DNA of 47,636 nt, taken from NCBI GenBank assembly GCA_021827925.1, contig JAKATZ010000018.1:1-47636 (forward strand), read 5' to 3'. The notes beneath the pieces were generated by a model. The model made no database searches. It had not been told where the DNA came from and saw only the letters and a list, made by a program, of their open reading frames with translations. This DNA comes from Microcaldota archaeon. GTDB taxonomy: Archaea; Micrarchaeota; Micrarchaeia; Micrarchaeales; CABMGC01. Position 1 is the stretch's first letter; each line of letters starts with the position of its first letter. Of this stretch, positions 37,309-47,636 are shown in pieces. The translations under genes and the position numbers were made by a program.

Positions 37309-40077
37309 TCACAGCCGCCTGTGCTCCGTGATGAATGAGTAGTACCTGCTTAGTGCAGATGCCGGAGCTGAGGGGCGCGTGTTGCGTATTATCTCATCGA
37401 GCATCTGCTCTTCAACCTTTGCCTCGGAGGAAGTATCGAGGCTTTTCTCAAGAGCGGCCATCTTCGCCTCCCTGCATACGTTTGCTATATCTGCGCCAGT
37501 GAACCCTTCGGTCTCCTCGGCTATCCTCGCGAAATCTATATCTCCGGTTGGTGCTTTCTCCATGTTCTTTTTGAATAGTGCCATCCTGTCCTCCTTCTCA
37601 GGAGCAGGGGTGAATATCAGTTTATCGATCCTTCCAGGGCGTATTATCGCAGAGTCAAGCGCGTCGGGCCTGTTTGTCGCGCCTACGATGAGAACCTCAT
37701 GGGTTTCCCTTATACTGTCCATTTCCTGGAGGAATTCACCGGTTATCTGAACTCCGAACTCGCTTGCGTTGGATCTCTCCGGGAAGATCGAATCCATCTC
37801 ATCTATGAAGATTATCGAGGGTGCATTCTCCTTTGCCCTGTTGAATGCACCCTTTATTGCCTCGACGGCTTTGTCTATGCCCTCCTTGCTCACCTCATTG
37901 CCGGAGAGCCATATCATCCGGTAGCTGCCAACTTCTGAAGCAATAGCCTTCATCAGCATTGTCTTTCCCGTGCCAGGAGGGCCCAGCAACAGTATTCCGT
38001 TTATATTCTTGATGTCGTATTTCTTTATGAGGGCAGGATGCAGCAGCGGAAGCTCAACTGCTTCGTAGAGAGCCTTCTTGGCCTCGCGCAGGCCTATCAC
38101 ATCGTCGAGGGAACTAGTCTTCTGTGCCTGTTCCGCCTCAGGATGCGTTCTGCGCTCATAGTCTAGCTTGAACTTCTCATACTCTGCGACCTGGGCGAGC
38201 GAAGTTGATGGCTTGGTGGCCTTTATCACATCAAGAAGATCATCGGTCTCTATTCGCAGCACCTTTACCCTCTTCATGGCTATCTCGGCAACCTGTCTGG
38301 CAGCTTCTAGGCATACGTTCGCTATGTCGGCGCCAGAGAATCTGTTTGTGAGCGCTGCGAGCTTGGAGTAATCAAGTTCGGGGCTCACGGGATAGCGCTT
38401 TGCTACCTTCCTGAATATAGCCTCCCTGCCCTTTTTATCCGGAAGTGCCATGTATATTATCTTGTCAAACCTACCAGGCCGCAGAACACTCGGGTCTATC
38501 GATTGCGGCGTATTGGTAGAACCCACTATAACTACGCCTTCAGTCTTCTGAAATCCGTCCATCTCTGCGAGGAGAGTGGATATGAGCTGGCGTGAGGCCT
38601 CGCTTTCCATTGAATCCCTCTTCCCGGCTATGCCGTCTATCTCATCGAAGAACAATACACTGGGAGGATGCTTTGCAGCTACGCCGAATATCCTTGAGAG
38701 GGTCTGCGAACTCTCCCCAGGGTAAGGAGATATGAGTGAAGATGTCTTCACATAGAAGAACCTCGCGCGTATCTCGTTTGAGAGTGCACGCATGATCATT
38801 GTCTTTCCCGTGCCGGGAGGGCCGAAGAGTAGAATACCCTTTGACGGTTTCACGTGATACGCACCGGCGATCTCCCTGTGCTCTATGGGCTCAAGCACAG
38901 CCTGCCTCAGCTCCTTCTTCGTCTCTTCGTAATCCCCAATGTCATCAAGCGTTTCCCTGCTGTTTGCCGTGAGTTCCTCAAAGGCCTCCCCGAACTTTCC
39001 GAGAAAGTCTTGCTTCATTACAGAGAGGGACCTCACTACATCAATGTCGCTGAGCTCAAGGAAGAATATGAGAGGCGGAGCCATGATGAAGCCCAGCAGC
39101 GAATGCCATACTATGCCGCCTTCGAAAAGAAGGCCGAGCAGCATGTACGCAGCTAGAATTATGACAAGATAGAGACTGGCCTCGGCTCCCTTGAACGGTG
39201 ACCTGCTCTTCACCACGTAGTTGCTCATCGTGAAAACTACGAGGAGCCAGACCACTGCCTGAACAAGGACAAGCTCTATGTTTGAGACAAATGAAGATAT
39301 GCCGACGTAGAATCCCGAATATAGGAGCGAGACCACATTGTAGCTTACGAATGTTCCTGCGGCAGAGGACCAGCCGCTAAAGAAGCCGGAGAGGGTTGTC
39401 ACACTCTTGGAAGGGGACATGAACTGAAGAGCCTGCGCGGCGCCGCTTGAAAGCGAGGAGGAGGACGCATTGAATGCTATTGGGGCGGTATTCTGGATTC
39501 CCGTCATCCCCGAAAATATGCACACCAGAACTACAGTCACTATCGCAGCTATACTTGCCCTCTTGTACCCAACGAATAGAGTACCGAGGGCGAAGACAGG
39601 AATTTCAAGCATGTATCCCAGATAAGAGAAAGGAAGCGTGACAAGAGCGTACACCAGCATGATGGTGCGGTAATGGCGGTATCCTATGAAGAGCGATGCG
39701 CTGATGAAAAGGGTGAATATCCATGCGAAGAGCGGTGCCTGGTATATGAGCATGGGCAGCGTTATGAAGAAGAGCGCCATAAGCCCGGCTAGCGGGTGTA
39801 TTCTCGTTATTGCAAACGTAAGCACGATTAGCGCTATCAGCACCGGGATGGGATAGAAAGGAAAGGCTATCGCAACGCTTGCCATGGCAAGTACCGATGC
39901 GACGGAATCAGGAAAGTTCTTGTGATTAACGAACTCCTTTGCAAAATCCTTGAACCAGTAGAATGAAAGAGGTACGTACGTTTTCCTTTTCCTCTTTGCA
40001 GAGAGCGACTTCCGTACGGTGGTTCCGGAGGAGACCCTGCCCTTCGGTGTTTCCTTTTTCTTATCCGCCACCCTCAT
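37309..40077 (-). CDS. Polytopic membrane protein with tandem AAA ATPase domains (Cdc48-like modules)
   Basis: Several N-terminal hydrophobic helices; Walker A GPPGTGKTMIMRAL and GPPGTGKTMLMKAI; Walker B VLFFDEIDGIAGKR and IIFIDEMDSIFPER. Confidence 0.9.
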   Translation of the reverse strand: MRVADKKKETPKGRVSSGTTVRKSLSAKRKRKTYVPLSFYWFKDFAKEFVNHKNFPDSVASVLAMASVAIAFPFYPIPVLIALIVLTFAITRIHPLAGLMALFFITLPMLIYQAPLFAWIFTLFISASLFIGYRHYRTIMLVYALVTLPFSYLGYMLEIPVFALGTLFVGYKRASIAAIVTVVLVCIFSGMTGIQNTAPIAFNASSSSLSSGAAQALQFMSPSKSVTTLSGFFSGWSSAAGTFVSYNVVSLLYSGFYVGISSFVSNIELVLVQAVVWLLVVFTMSNYVVKSRSPFKGAEASLYLVIILAAYMLLGLLFEGGIVWHSLLGFIMAPPLIFFLELSDIDVVRSLSVMKQDFLGKFGEAFEELTANSRETLDDIGDYEETKKELRQAVLEPIEHREIAGAYHVKPSKGILLFGPPGTGKTMIMRALSNEIRARFFYVKTSSLISPYPGESSQTLSRIFGVAAKHPPSVLFFDEIDGIAGKRDSMESEASRQLISTLLAEMDGFQKTEGVVIVGSTNTPQSIDPSVLRPGRFDKIIYMALPDKKGREAIFRKVAKRYPVSPELDYSKLAALTNRFSGADIANVCLEAARQVAEIAMKRVKVLRIETDDLLDVIKATKPSTSLAQVAEYEKFKLDYERRTHPEAEQAQKTSSLDDVIGLREAKKALYEAVELPLLHPALIKKYDIKNINGILLLGPPGTGKTMLMKAIASEVGSYRMIWLSGNEVSKEGIDKAVEAIKGAFNRAKENAPSIIFIDEMDSIFPERSNASEFGVQITGEFLQEMDSIRETHEVLIVGATNRPDALDSAIIRPGRIDKLIFTPAPEKEDRMALFKKNMEKAPTGDIDFARIAEETEGFTGADIANVCREAKMAALEKSLDTSSEAKVEEQMLDEIIRNTRPSAPASALSRYYSFITEHRRL

Positions 40078-41263: not shown

Positions 41264-41956
41264 TCATTTGTTATCATTTATATTATTGTAACTAATTATT
41301 TTTACGGGCTCAAGTACCCTATATTCCTCCACAAGTAAGCGGTATTGTCTGCTGTAAGTGTTATCAAATTTTCTGTAACAAAAAGAACCGATTAAGATGT
41401 TTGTTATTATAAGTGTTCTTAGATCTATGCCTTTAACGCCGTTTACAAGTTTTTCTGCGTAAGTCTGAAGTTCATCGTCTTTAAATATTGGTAGTACTAA
41501 AAAACCACCGATTGGAACGCCTATATTGCTTGCGTACGCATATTTTGTTGTAGAAGTCGTAGTATCCTCGTATATATCCAGTAACAATGAAGTTCGTGTT
41601 GAAGAGGCAATACCCCCATATATTATTTGAGATAGAAATATTACATTGTATTTTATTTGTAGATTAGTTTCGGTTATAGTAATCCGCCTTAGAATATTCT
41701 TTTTTACCAGGGAATAATAGGCATATTGAGATGCACCGTGATTAAGAGAATATTTTCTATCTATTGCAGTGAAAGACATCCGTCCATCTTTATTTAGTTC
41801 CTTAAGGACTTTTTTTTCTCTTTCCGAAATGTTCGCATTTTTCACTTTTAGGGATACACTACCATAAGAATTCTCGTATCCTAATAATTCGAGAAATTTC
41901 TCTCTGAAGGGTATGAAACAATAAGCATCGAAGTTAGGAGTAATGTTCCATTTCAT
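41264..41956 (-). CDS. Probable winged-HTH regulator (divergent Lrp-like)
   Basis: ISEREKKVLKELNKDGRMSFTAIDRKYSLNHGASQYAYYSLVKKNIL resembles wHTH. Confidence 0.5.
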   Translation of the reverse strand: MKWNITPNFDAYCFIPFREKFLELLGYENSYGSVSLKVKNANISEREKKVLKELNKDGRMSFTAIDRKYSLNHGASQYAYYSLVKKNILRRITITETNLQIKYNVIFLSQIIYGGIASSTRTSLLLDIYEDTTTSTTKYAYASNIGVPIGGFLVLPIFKDDELQTYAEKLVNGVKGIDLRTLIITNILIGSFCYRKFDNTYSRQYRLLVEEYRVLEPVKIISYNNINDNK

Positions 41957-42006: not shown

Positions 42007-42651
42007 TTACATCGCGGTTGTCTTTTGCAAGGAAAAAAGTATGAGATCGTAGTCGCCAGTAGTAGTTATTGCTAATTGTATTCGTGGTTCGTTTTCTAAT
42101 ACGTTTTTAAGTTCTTTTACAGGAGGGAGTTTGTTATCTATTAACTTTATAAATACTATGTAGCTAAGATATCCTAATTTTTGCGCATCAATTTCTGGAA
42201 TATAAGAAATATCATATTTTTTCTCTAATATTTTTACGCGATTATATGCTGCGGAAGCAGTTAAGCCCGTTAGCTTCCCAATAAAGCTATAGCTAGCTCT
42301 GCCATTCATGCTAAGAATCTTAAGTATTTTCCTTTCGATATCAGTTGACTTAGTTATTTTGATTGGATTTTTTACTTCGGGCAAGAACACTTTTCCCCCA
42401 TGTGCTTCGATTATTTCTTTTGCATTACGAATTTCGTCCTCTTTTTCTTTAAGTTTTTTAATGAATGTACCATCGTTATTTATCTTGCCTAAGTACTCCG
42501 CTTCGGTTTTAGGCTTTTTTAGTTCTTTGACCCAAGTAGAAGTTTGTCTGTACACATAATACGTACCGTTAAGTCGTTTTAGCACTATATGGAAAGGGAA
42601 ACTTTCTTTTAGTTCTTTGAATTTGTTATTTATCGTGTCAGGAATATCCAT
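42007..42651 (-). CDS. Lrp/AsnC-like regulator with N-terminal extension
   Basis: TDIERKILKILSMNGRASYSFIGKLTGLTASAAYNRVKILEKKYDI, then RAM-like YIVFIKLIDN...ITTTGDYDLILF. Confidence 0.7.
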   Translation of the reverse strand: MDIPDTINNKFKELKESFPFHIVLKRLNGTYYVYRQTSTWVKELKKPKTEAEYLGKINNDGTFIKKLKEKEDEIRNAKEIIEAHGGKVFLPEVKNPIKITKSTDIERKILKILSMNGRASYSFIGKLTGLTASAAYNRVKILEKKYDISYIPEIDAQKLGYLSYIVFIKLIDNKLPPVKELKNVLENEPRIQLAITTTGDYDLILFSLQKTTAM

Positions 42652-43536: not shown

Positions 43537-44385
43537 ATGGGACTTCGGTTGAAGGACTGGTACAGTTTAACTAAAGTAAATAGAGTCGTAATGCCTGCTT
43601 CGTGCTTTTTATTAGGAGTGTTTGCGTTCTCGACATTTAATGAATTGTATGTTTTGCCAATATTTACTATTTTATTCCTGTATGCAGCATCAGCAACTTT
43701 GAATGATTTGTCGGATATAGACATTGACAAAATATCAAATCCAGATAGACCACTTCCTGCACGTAAACTTACACGACTAGATACCTTCAAGATATCCATT
43801 TTTTTTGCGATTGTTGGAGTTATCTCTTCGTATTTCATCGGGATTATATTTAATAAACCGTATTTTGTGTTATTTGGGGCAGGGTGGTTAATGCTAGGGA
43901 TTATTTATGCAGTAATTACTTCGCATCATTTTATTACTTCGTCATTTACATTATCACTATCGCACGGCTTACTGCCGTTTTTAGCCTCTCTTTATCTAAG
44001 TAATAGCGCCATGATCAGTTATAAAGCATTGGTCTTCATGGGAGTTATACTAAGTACATTATTTATGACGTATAATGTAAAAGATTTCAAGGATATGGAA
44101 GGAGATAGACTGAGCGGCAGGGTAACTATCCCTCTTCTTAAAGATGCTAGCTTTGGAAAGAAAGTTATGCTGATCCTTTTTATTATGACATTCCCAACAG
44201 CGATCATAGCTTGGATTTTGTTAGACGGATCATACCTTAGTCTGGTTGGATCAGTATTTTTTAGTTTGATTTTGATATATTCTGGTATTGACTTGTTCAA
44301 AGCTAATAGTAGAAAGGAATTTTCAAGGATAATAACTAGATGTACTTATGTGAGGGCACTCTTTATACTTTCCTTCCTATTATAG
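43537..44385 (+). CDS. UbiA-family prenyltransferase
   Basis: NDLSDIDIDKISNPDRPLPA and DFKDMEGDRLSGRVTIPLL Asp-rich motifs; polytopic. Confidence 0.88.
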   Translation: MGLRLKDWYSLTKVNRVVMPASCFLLGVFAFSTFNELYVLPIFTILFLYAASATLNDLSDIDIDKISNPDRPLPARKLTRLDTFKISIFFAIVGVISSYFIGIIFNKPYFVLFGAGWLMLGIIYAVITSHHFITSSFTLSLSHGLLPFLASLYLSNSAMISYKALVFMGVILSTLFMTYNVKDFKDMEGDRLSGRVTIPLLKDASFGKKVMLILFIMTFPTAIIAWILLDGSYLSLVGSVFFSLILIYSGIDLFKANSRKEFSRIITRCTYVRALFILSFLL

Positions 44386-44390
44386 GAACA

Positions 44391-45581
44391 TTACTGTTCA
44401 CAAACTATTGTCAAGTTATCAGTTGCAGTCCCGCTTGATCTTTTGAATCTAACTTCATGACTTAGACATCCGGAAATAAAACCGGAGATTATGCCTTTTG
44501 GTATTAGATAGTCGGATGTGTCAGAATAAACACTCCACGGATAATACATTAGGACTATTTTTATATTGGTCCCTTTTTTAATAGTAAATACATCGCCCCA
44601 CCCAAGCGAAGGGAAATAGTCATTAATAAATTTTTCATAGTCTTGGCTGCCATATTCTTTTTGTAAATATTTCCCATGTTCGAAGCAGATATCGAACAGA
44701 ACATCGGCGCCTTTTGGTAGCTTGCGTATTTCATTTTCAATTATATATATTAAATTTGAATCAACCATCAAGTAACGTATATCATGATATTTTATCATTC
44801 CTTTCTCATACTTAAAAAAATGTAGATCTAGGAGGGATTTTAGTGAGTTTTTAGCGTGTTCGACTTTTCTCACTGTATTCATATCTTTGTATTTTTTATT
44901 GAAAGGTAGAAGGGTTATGTTGGTATTCCTAAAATGAGTTATTCCTTCTTTTTTAAGTTCCGCGTCAGGTTCTGCTACAATGATACAGGATTTGTCGCCC
45001 CTGCCCTGGCATTTCAATTGTACTCCTTCTACAGCTTTGTCTTTAACCATGTATGCCCAGATGCCGGAGATACCGCCTTCTGCCATTATGTACCCTATTC
45101 CGTTCTTACTGCACACCACATAATCAGTTACTTCTATCTCGAATCTTTTATTTTTGAGAGTTACATTATAATCCGCAGCAGAAGCGTAAGTAGTAGTTAT
45201 AAAACGCGTAAGAAAATACGTAAAAGTTAGGAATTTCTTTGTATCGGTACCGCCAATTTGCGGAAAATTTGATAAACTAGCATAGTTATAACCAAATTGT
45301 TTACCTATAGCGTATAATGCTTGTTTTCCCCTTTCTTTGTATTTATTAACAATATGTTGCTCTATATGCGAAATTAGAGGCTCTTCTAGGAATAGCAGTC
45401 TCCGATAGGATTTAGTCTCATCTCCACTCACTACAGTTACTATAAATCCAGGCGAGTCTAATTTTTGCATTTTTGGGTTTAGAATATGTTGTATGAACCA
45501 AGAAAATGCGCTATCTTTCAATGCCATGTACATACCAATAGTGTATTGTCTTTTTCTTGCGCAACGAGCATCAACGCTCAA
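44391..45581 (-). CDS. V4R-domain protein (probably tandem V4R)
   Basis: AEGGISGIWAYMVKDKAVEGVQLKCQGRGDKSCIIVAEP matches V4R; a second weaker unit at the C-terminus. Confidence 0.72.
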   Translation of the reverse strand: MSVDARCARKRQYTIGMYMALKDSAFSWFIQHILNPKMQKLDSPGFIVTVVSGDETKSYRRLLFLEEPLISHIEQHIVNKYKERGKQALYAIGKQFGYNYASLSNFPQIGGTDTKKFLTFTYFLTRFITTTYASAADYNVTLKNKRFEIEVTDYVVCSKNGIGYIMAEGGISGIWAYMVKDKAVEGVQLKCQGRGDKSCIIVAEPDAELKKEGITHFRNTNITLLPFNKKYKDMNTVRKVEHAKNSLKSLLDLHFFKYEKGMIKYHDIRYLMVDSNLIYIIENEIRKLPKGADVLFDICFEHGKYLQKEYGSQDYEKFINDYFPSLGWGDVFTIKKGTNIKIVLMYYPWSVYSDTSDYLIPKGIISGFISGCLSHEVRFKRSSGTATDNLTIVCEQ

Positions 45582-46389
45582 TAACTATCCCGTTGTCATT
45601 GAAATCAAAATTATGACTTACGGTAATTATCTTGGTATTTCGCAATTTTTTGACTTGTATTGACCTGCTTTCTTCTGTGCCTATTTCTCCACGGCTGAGC
45701 GTCACATAACCATCGCAAACATATTCGCTTACTCCGTCAGCCGTGAGCTGGTCATCCTTTCCTGCATCTGTTATGATGAGATTCGTGGTTCTGAGGTCTG
45801 CGAGCGCGTTGATCACCAGATAGATTATTCTGCTTTCCGATGCGCCAGTGTAGAAGGTCCTCCCTTTCGGGTCCTGCCCCAATGCAGGCATGACCTCGTA
45901 CCGATACTTCTTGTCCTTCATCTTCGCCGGGTCTACCGTGATAGAAGGATTCAGGTCGGTCTTGTATGACAGCGGAACGACGAACTGGTCTAGATTTACA
46001 TGGAATATCGAAAGGTTGTCAAAAACAAGCCTTTTTGCGCCAGTTTCCTCAACTGCATCCTCGATCATGCTGAATATGTTTACCTTTATGCTGCCTTCTG
46101 GAACCTTTACAAAAGATACTTTCTTCTGCTTCTCCAACGCGTCGAAATCCCACCCGAATTGCTTTGCCTGCACCTTGAGCTGATCTGCAGGAGCATCGAG
46201 AGAAACGTAGACGCCGGACTCGCCCTGTTTGGCGCCGTTGTAAAGATACTGCAGGCCGAATATCGTCTTTCCCGTGCCTGGAAAGCCAGTTATTAGCACG
46301 TTGAAGCCGCGCGGTATGCCGCCCTCTACCAACTTATCGAATCCGGGTATTCCCGTTTTGGCTCTTTCCATGTCGATCAACATTTTCAA
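45571..46389 (-). CDS. KaiC-like RecA-superfamily ATPase
   Basis: GIPGFDKLVEGGIPRGFNVLITGFPGTGKTIFGLQYLYNGAKQGESGVYVSLDAPADQL; RLVFDNLS. Confidence 0.9.
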   Translation of the reverse strand: MKMLIDMERAKTGIPGFDKLVEGGIPRGFNVLITGFPGTGKTIFGLQYLYNGAKQGESGVYVSLDAPADQLKVQAKQFGWDFDALEKQKKVSFVKVPEGSIKVNIFSMIEDAVEETGAKRLVFDNLSIFHVNLDQFVVPLSYKTDLNPSITVDPAKMKDKKYRYEVMPALGQDPKGRTFYTGASESRIIYLVINALADLRTTNLIITDAGKDDQLTADGVSEYVCDGYVTLSRGEIGTEESRSIQVKKLRNTKIITVSHNFDFNDNGIVIER

Positions 46390-46391
46390 TT

Positions 46392-47144
46392 CTATGCGAA
46401 TATCTCCTTCTTCTTGCTTATCACTATGCCTTCCTCAGTAACATCGAACTGTGGCTGCAGGCTTTTGTACTTGGTGTACCTCATCTTTAACACGGATATC
46501 CTGTGCATCAGCTCCTCGCCATAGCCGTAGCTCGCGAGCTTTATGACGCCGTCGAACATCGAATCCTCAAGCAGGCCGGGTATCCTAACCGAGCTTGCGG
46601 AAGGCACCTCTATGGTCACTATCGTGGTTACCCCGAGCCGGTGTAGATTCTCCACCATAAAGTTTACCGACCTAGTGAATATCCTGTCGTTCTCAAGGAG
46701 AGAACGGAGAAGGCTGAGTGAGTCTATCACTATCAGTTTCGAGCCGGTTGCGGTTACAGTCTTGATTATCTCGGAGATGAACAGAGTCATGTTCTCATCT
46801 GTCTTGAACGCCGTGTCCATCTCTCTCTCGACTATCGTCAGCTTCTTCCTGCCTATCAGGTCCTGTACTCCGCTAAATCCGGGGAACGTGCTAGAAACGT
46901 TCTTCAGCAGGTCGCGCTTTGTCTGGTCTATGGAGATGTCTGCGCAGGGTATCCCTGCCTTTGCACTACGGTAGAGCATCTCGAATGCAAAAAGGCTCTT
47001 GCCAGACCCGGCGTTACCTATTAACAACACCTGATTTCCTTCAGGTATGCCTCCGCCTATCATTTCGTCGAATCCACTAATGCCTGTGCGCAGCCTCGTT
47101 ATTGACGATGCGTCTGCAGAACCCACGTTTCCCATTTTCCCCAC
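46392..47144 (-). CDS. KaiC-like RecA-superfamily ATPase
   Basis: GISGFDEMIGGGIPEGNQVLLIGNAGSGKSLFAFEMLYRSAKAGIPCADISIDQ; LIVIDSLSLLRSL. Confidence 0.9.
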   Translation of the reverse strand: MGKMGNVGSADASSITRLRTGISGFDEMIGGGIPEGNQVLLIGNAGSGKSLFAFEMLYRSAKAGIPCADISIDQTKRDLLKNVSSTFPGFSGVQDLIGRKKLTIVEREMDTAFKTDENMTLFISEIIKTVTATGSKLIVIDSLSLLRSLLENDRIFTRSVNFMVENLHRLGVTTIVTIEVPSASSVRIPGLLEDSMFDGVIKLASYGYGEELMHRISVLKMRYTKYKSLQPQFDVTEEGIVISKKKEIFA

Positions 47145-47545: not shown

Positions 47546-47636
47546 GTGAGCGGGAAATCCCACACCATTCATGGGTGGGATGAAAGCGAACCGCAGTAAG
47601 GCGTATAAATATGGATGGAAATATAGGTTGCATGGA
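47546..47636 (+). mobile_element. Left end of a second TnpB-type element (continues beyond window)
   Basis: 91 nt aligning without gaps to 22919-23009; differences almost confined to a hairpin. Ends just after ATG of ttgcATGga. Confidence 0.85.

Follow-up and report, generated by a model that had tools for sequence, protein, structure and literature searches.

What a pair of KaiC-like ATPases does beside the gene of a putative small-molecule sensor is the question raised by the last genes of a 47,636-nt stretch (the window), Microcaldota archaeon contig JAKATZ010000018.1 (GCA_021827925.1) of the Micrarchaeota lineage, analyzed on its forward strand and belonging to a tiny uncultured archaeon. 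A preliminary description, made from the sequence alone, had read these genes as two KaiC-like ATPases, here called KA and KB, leading into a V4R-domain gene, and had suggested a ligand-gated ATP-binding switch with slow hydrolysis. The coordinates and minus-strand orientation that it gave for the three open reading frames (ORFs) were correct (Table 1), while it had left out the neighboring UbiA gene, from which the best indication of function was eventually obtained. The contig ends at position 47636, so that genes upstream of KA lie outside view, and many other contigs carrying these genes likewise end nearby. Searches of the window for promoters, terminators, and repeats gave nothing above chance level. 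Farther from these genes, positions 37309 to 40077 encode a protein of 922 aa that has two AAA+ domains and a hydrophobic region at its N terminus.

Table 1. Features of the window discussed in the text, with forward-strand coordinates
Feature	Coordinates	Strand	Basis
KA, single-domain KaiC-family ATPase, facultative member of the module	46392..47144	-	PF06745, 137 bits
KA D73-Q74 codons, opposite KaiC CI E77/E78	46923..46928	-	Alignment; ISIDQ meets the pair
KB, single-domain KaiC-family ATPase, constant partner of the V4R gene	45571..46389	-	PF06745, 172.9 bits
KB D65-A66 codons, opposite KaiC CI E77/E78	46192..46197	-	Alignment; VSLDA meets the pair
Tandem V4R-type sensor protein, ORF from TTG	44391..45581	-	Profiles, AF2, Foldseek
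First V4R-type domain, residues 39-205	44967..45467	-	AF2 strand/helix pattern; hhalign; homologue alignment
Second V4R-type domain, residues 257-396	44394..44813	-	AF2; hhalign
UbiA-superfamily prenyltransferase, recurrent genomic partner of KaiC-V4R	43537..44385	+	PF01040, 92.1 bits; linkage
Split Lrp/AsnC-like two-part regulator, N-terminal part	42007..42651	-	PF13404; aligns to L034 homologue
Split Lrp/AsnC-like two-part regulator, C-terminal part, other frame	41264..41956	-	Aligns to L034 homologue

The KaiC-like label of both ATPases was borne out, each consisting of one KaiC domain that scored far above the PF06745 cut-off of 26.6 bits (Table 1). The AF2 model of KB (pLDDT 89.7) had PH0186/KaiC CI as its best Foldseek match (E 3.6e-22). 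As the preliminary description had it, the Walker motifs are intact: both Walker A sequences (GFPGTGKT and GNAGSGKS) and the Walker B Asp are present, and the Walker A Lys and Walker B Asp were invariant in the alignment of scorable relatives. The K-x-R finger, which in KaiC (K224/R226) reaches the ATP of the neighboring subunit (PMC2777353), is formed in KB by K248/R250, with the Lys kept in 66/66 and the Arg in 65/66 scorable KB sequences; in KA, the Lys was found in 6/7 and the Arg in 7/7 scorable sequences. KB carries an insert at about residues 131 to 185 and probably starts at ATG 46371. A scan of genome contigs with KB yielded three loci. KB shares PF06745, the fold, the Walker motifs, and a trans K-x-R finger with cyanobacterial KaiC and with archaeal PH0186/PH0284, whereas cyanobacterial KaiC has two fused domains, the Glu-Glu pair, and KaiA/KaiB, in place of which KA and KB have a single domain without the pair and a V4R partner. 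A clock reading of KA and KB was rejected because both are single-domain proteins and KaiB had no match in the genome, which is about 93% complete.

Both ATPases had been described as lacking the Glu-Glu pair that follows the core strand in KaiC. Alignment to the KaiC E77/E78 positions revealed that the pair is replaced, not displaced, by D65-A66 in KB and D73-Q74 in KA, although the word "lacking" hides a conservative E-to-D change at the base position. In KaiC, E77 has been assigned the role of base, and E78 coordinates a Mg ion (PMC2777353). Because the glutamate of the D-T-E motif in RadA-like proteins occupies the first-position column of the same alignment, that position corresponds to the RecA-type catalytic base. 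KA and KB therefore retain an acid at the base position and have lost the second carboxylate, at the Mg-coordinating position. In home-family KB genes the first position is commonly D or E and the second S, M, A, T, N, or Q; since most KB relatives share the loss of the pair, it is a widespread family state rather than the decay of one copy. Some KB-like genes from other families and from other archaea do have E-E, as do three further KA-like paralogues encoded in the window's genome. Three consecutive KA-like KaiC genes with intact Glu-Glu pairs were also seen at locus L058 (G000 C15, 8131 to 10380), with a 318-aa protein on each flank, one of which was scanned and had no Pfam match. Results for KaiC E318D and E77Q/E78Q make reduced turnover plausible (PMC2777353, PMC5007536), and by analogy the D at the base position may make ATP hydrolysis by KA and KB slow. 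One could go further and regard both as degenerate pseudo-ATPases in which the loss of the pair is decay, given that D-A and D-Q stand where KaiC has E-E. This is highly improbable, considering that most relatives keep the acid at the base position and that the Walker A Lys, Walker B Asp, and K-x-R finger are essentially invariant, and we dropped it because the nucleotide-site residues are retained.

Pfam and NCBIfam alone did not place the third gene, the match to PF02830 reaching 14.1 bits against a cut-off of 31 (E = 0.051), and the gathering score was passed by 0/22 members of its tandem V4R homologue set. The V4R label holds nonetheless on profile-profile comparison, the AF2 model, and Foldseek, but the same evidence turns the single domain of the preliminary description into two tandem ones. 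When family profiles were used, V4R was returned: the tandem V4R profile (A1), built from 22 homologues, matched a second profile, made from 22 small proteins encoded in KaiC-V4R loci, some of which (several) score above the PF02830 cut-off. By hhalign, the C half matched V4R with a probability of 98% (E 1.9e-13) and the N half with a probability of 90% (E 1.7e-6); one row of the small-protein profile (L047, 6639 to 7214) is not V4R and was dropped for this split-half comparison, having been kept in the full-length one. The AF2 model consisted of two similar alpha/beta domains (pLDDT 84.5, pTM 0.86), and its Foldseek matches were the phenol sensors PoxR/DmpR/MopR, Thorarchaeota TRAPPC3, MJ1460, and palmitoylated Bet3 (6aq3), with a probability of 1.00 and E values of 5e-4 to 2e-2 for PoxR, TRAPPC3, and MJ1460. 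The first domain retains the V4R ending E185, C191, and C199, these Cys being absent from most homologues. The name that best fits the third gene product is divergent tandem V4R protein. For V4R domains, binding of hydrophobic ligands and signaling in cis or in trans have been proposed (PMC2253512), and the window protein may, by analogy, bind a hydrophobic small molecule.

A PDB sequence search with this protein produced nothing beyond a designed repeat protein and some weak matches to topoisomerases, which were deemed chance. The PF02830 proteins of about 345 aa (A4) were considered as a parent family and rejected, as they have a different neighborhood and are only distantly similar to the tandem V4R protein. 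PF02830 proteins occur in 77/79 family genomes, including G000 C5 (L090, 6572 to 7663), most of them about 345 aa long, and SecY adjoins the A4 gene in L091.

The 11-nt overlap from which coupled translation of KB and the V4R gene had been suggested depends on a doubtful start at the first in-frame TTG. Because most homologues begin near residue 19 of the window ORF and residues 1 to 21 have pLDDT below 50, the V4R gene likely starts at ATG 45527, which leaves 43 nt between it and KB; the gap in relatives is typically about 10 nt.

How constant this arrangement is was surveyed in 79 genomes of the home Micrarchaeota family, of which 21 have the V4R protein and 32 have KB (47 genes). The KB census was independent of V4R, and the counts were made over the 39 KB genes whose contig extends through two or more downstream genes. 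A V4R gene, tandem or small, lay within a few genes of KB in 37/39 cases and directly downstream on the same strand in 31/39, so that the KB-V4R neighborhood is strongly conserved among relatives. The two KaiC genes, which had been taken as one unit, do not form one: the constant pair is KB and V4R, and KA is close in only 7/47 home-family loci, though it was never seen among the distant genes of those 47. In a second phylum, reached via a Woesearchaeota locus, KB is accompanied by V4R in 12/14 loci. The KB-V4R pair is a conserved two-gene module that recurs in two DPANN phyla.

Several further arrangements were observed around V4R genes. At L049 and L050, tandem V4R genes without a nearby KB are convergent with the gene of a 307-aa protein, which at L049 matched a sulfate permease model below the cut-off. 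In L167 (6538 to 9762), a stretch without KB, six small V4R genes follow one another, and the row ends at a convergent FAD oxidoreductase. Immediately upstream of KB, second-phylum loci including L203-L209 encode a conserved ∼100-aa protein, in many cases together with a divergent copy; one was scanned, with no Pfam match. In addition, the 3' end of V4R is overlapped by its convergent neighbor in 22/46 cases, compared with 20/114 other convergent pairs (Fisher P 1.5e-4); for the FAD oxidoreductase of the second phylum, the figure is 8/9.

The module is linked to enzymes of isoprenoid-lipid synthesis. Using a family list compiled after the neighbors had been viewed, we found an isoprenoid enzyme within four genes of KB in 29/39 cases, against a background of 0/282 more distant genes of the same loci searched with the same profiles. 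UbiA, the commonest isoprenoid neighbor of KB, was tested separately with an independent Pfam model, and UbiA genes above the Pfam cut-off lay beside at least 15 of the KB genes; the chance expectation, which we estimated from gene density in the Pfam search, is about 2% per KB (P about 1e-15). Where loci of other families were chosen by V4R alone, 14/16 had an isoprenoid enzyme, and the second-phylum loci had UbiA in 9/14 and an FAD oxidoreductase of the geranylgeranyl-reductase/lycopene-cyclase kind in 9/14. The enzyme partners vary, including UbiA, PcrB/GGGPS with a HAD phosphatase, cis-prenyltransferase, GHMP kinase, and a GGR-like FAD enzyme, and methyltransferases and B12 radical SAM proteins are further neighbors. 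Overlaps of 4 nt between V4R and UbiA or GGGPS genes were found in seven loci. Some KB-V4R pairs, e.g., those of L118, L119, L096, and L098, have no recognized isoprenoid enzyme nearby. Citrate-synthase C-terminal-domain proteins were seen among the UbiA/FAD genes of second-phylum cassettes, at L203 (3331 to 4107) and L210 (8308 to 9183) by Pfam hits and at L202 (3442 to 4209) by a profile match.

The UbiA of the window is convergent with the V4R gene across a 5-nt gap. It resembles archaeal DGGGP synthase and the UbiA superfamily in its Pfam match, in both Asp-rich motifs (NDLSDIDID and DFKDMEGD), and in its nearest solved structure, DGGGP synthase 6m31, but falls outside the clade of the canonical enzyme. 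In the tree, canonical-type UbiA genes of the same genomes formed a 100%-supported clade that contained neither the window UbiA nor the module UbiAs, which fall in several groups, with several long branches and an unsure finer grouping. The window's genome also encodes a canonical-type UbiA (contig C21) and a GGGPS (contig C10), which makes the UbiA of the window an additional enzyme. Moreover, V4R genes were AT-rich relative to their neighbors in 30/31 loci (mean -0.085), as were module UbiA genes in 25/27 (mean -0.09), whereas KB (-0.009) and control UbiA genes were not. In the window, an AT-rich block from about 40.8 to 45.6 kb, with about 28 to 43% GC against about 50% around it, takes in a GNAT gene, the split regulator, UbiA, and V4R, and excludes KB and KA. 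One reading is that V4R and the enzyme were acquired horizontally beside a resident KaiC; another is that relaxed or different constraint produced the AT-richness. The two parts of the split regulator align to residues 8 to 227 and 248 to 457, respectively, of an intact 470-aa homologue at L034, and the Lrp/AsnC-like two-part regulator is intact in relatives as a protein of ∼370 to 470 aa (L034, L044, L047, and L098).

Because the conserved KaiC-V4R pair adjoins enzymes of membrane isoprenoid lipids, it probably serves as a lipid-sensing switch and not as a clock. Our best explanation, to which we give roughly an even chance, is that the V4R protein responds to a prenyl lipid or intermediate by gating a KaiC-like ring, which in turn controls the adjacent isoprenoid pathway; the broader proposal of a two-protein switch that senses prenyl lipids and controls swappable isoprenoid-lipid pathways in two DPANN phyla is made more tentatively, its chances being somewhat below even. 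What the data show is the gene pair, the linkage of that pair to prenyl enzymes in both phyla, a fold of the V4R type, and conservation of the nucleotide site; the remaining steps are predicted as follows. KB would assemble ATP-bound, KaiC-like rings with the nucleotide at the subunit interface, as argued from the retained Walker A Lys, Walker B Asp, and K-x-R finger and from the KaiC-domain model. The tandem V4R protein would bind a hydrophobic prenyl product or intermediate, its putative ligand, and would dock on KB, altering ring assembly or nucleotide turnover. The altered state of KB would then raise or lower the activity, membrane placement, or expression of the neighboring prenyl-lipid enzyme, which would be UbiA here and GGGPS, cis-prenyltransferase, or the GGR-like FAD enzyme elsewhere.

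Such action in trans would parallel that of the V4R sensor of DmpR, which acts in cis on its ATPase and keeps it inactive until ligand permits oligomerization (PMC7264223). DmpR, PoxR, and MopR, the best Foldseek matches, likewise combine a V4R-fold sensor with a P-loop ATPase, but theirs is fused to an AAA+ ATPase, whereas the module has a separate two-domain sensor and a KaiC/RecA-type ATPase, without a sigma54 or DNA-binding part. The ligand-gated ATP switch of the preliminary description thus remains the best mechanism, backed by the KB-V4R pair in two phyla, the fold likeness to these sensors, and the kept nucleotide sites, except that KA is not in the constant unit. Several points count against a switch: UbiA is not co-transcribed with V4R in many loci, including the window, because the genes are convergent; some KB-V4R pairs are without an isoprenoid enzyme; the tandem V4R genes of L049/L050 are without KB; and most homologues have lost the Cys residues.

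Alternatively, KaiC-V4R could be a working part of the pathway, with V4R carrying or presenting a hydrophobic substrate to UbiA and the reductase and KB powering its loading or release with ATP. V4R, UbiA, the GGR-like FAD enzyme, B12 radical SAM protein, and methyltransferase resemble the gene kinds of bacteriochlorophyll tail assembly (BchJ, BchG, BchP, BchE, and BchM), in which the same kinds of enzymes surround a V4R protein; this is a likeness of gene kinds rather than an established orthology, no chelatase or porphyrin enzymes occur among the scanned module neighbors, and KaiC is extra. Bet3, a V4R relative matched by Foldseek (6aq3), is fatty-acylated, which also suits a carrier. A regulator sensing a shared prenyl lipid is favored, however, because the enzyme partners swap while KaiC-V4R remains, which suits a regulator better than a substrate-specific carrier, and KaiC relatives are best known as regulators. 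We therefore regard a pathway part as rather unlikely, if worth keeping in mind.

Two readings give the prenyl enzymes or the ATPase a different place. KaiC ATPases have been proposed as archaeal signaling hubs (Makarova, Galperin, and Koonin 2017, as cited by PMC5847659), and KB could be a general hub of this kind, for which V4R is one of many input domains, the prenyl enzymes are mere frequent neighbors, and output runs through the nearby Lrp-like regulator. The likeness is that of a KaiC-like ATPase tied to input and output partners, and the two-part Lrp-like gene is indeed close to KB in 10/47 home-family loci. Yet Lrp genes also occur among the distant genes (5 far, 14 near) and are absent from the second-phylum loci, while prenyl enzymes number 0 far; the regulator is broken in the window, so that a general hub seems improbable. 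What distinguishes the module is its specific linkage of V4R and isoprenoid enzymes to the ATPase. A TRAPP-like membrane tether or vesicle role, with V4R as a Bet3-like scaffold and KB as its ATPase, draws on the Foldseek matches to TRAPPC3/Bet3, including a Thorarchaeota protein, and on the proposal that V4R is the ancestor of Bet3 (PMC2253512). Against it, the closest fold matches are ligand sensors, the module is linked to enzymes of lipid synthesis, and the scanned neighbors included no small GTPase, which makes such a role very unlikely.

A KaiC-V4R-UbiA linkage was found nowhere in the literature searched, which is weak evidence of absence, the 2017 archaeal KaiC survey lying outside that search. 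For most KaiC-like ATPases of archaea neither input nor output is known, and a conserved cassette that combines KaiC with a hydrophobic-ligand fold and prenyl-lipid enzymes predicts concretely what to expect at each end of the signal. V4R, from which Bet3, a trafficking subunit of eukaryotes, has been proposed to descend, also gains a testable lipid-linked role in archaea. In addition, the module points to specialized isoprenoid lipids in DPANN archaea with very small genomes, and the proposed lipid-sensing switch, if true, would tie KaiC-type ATPases to membrane-lipid metabolism.
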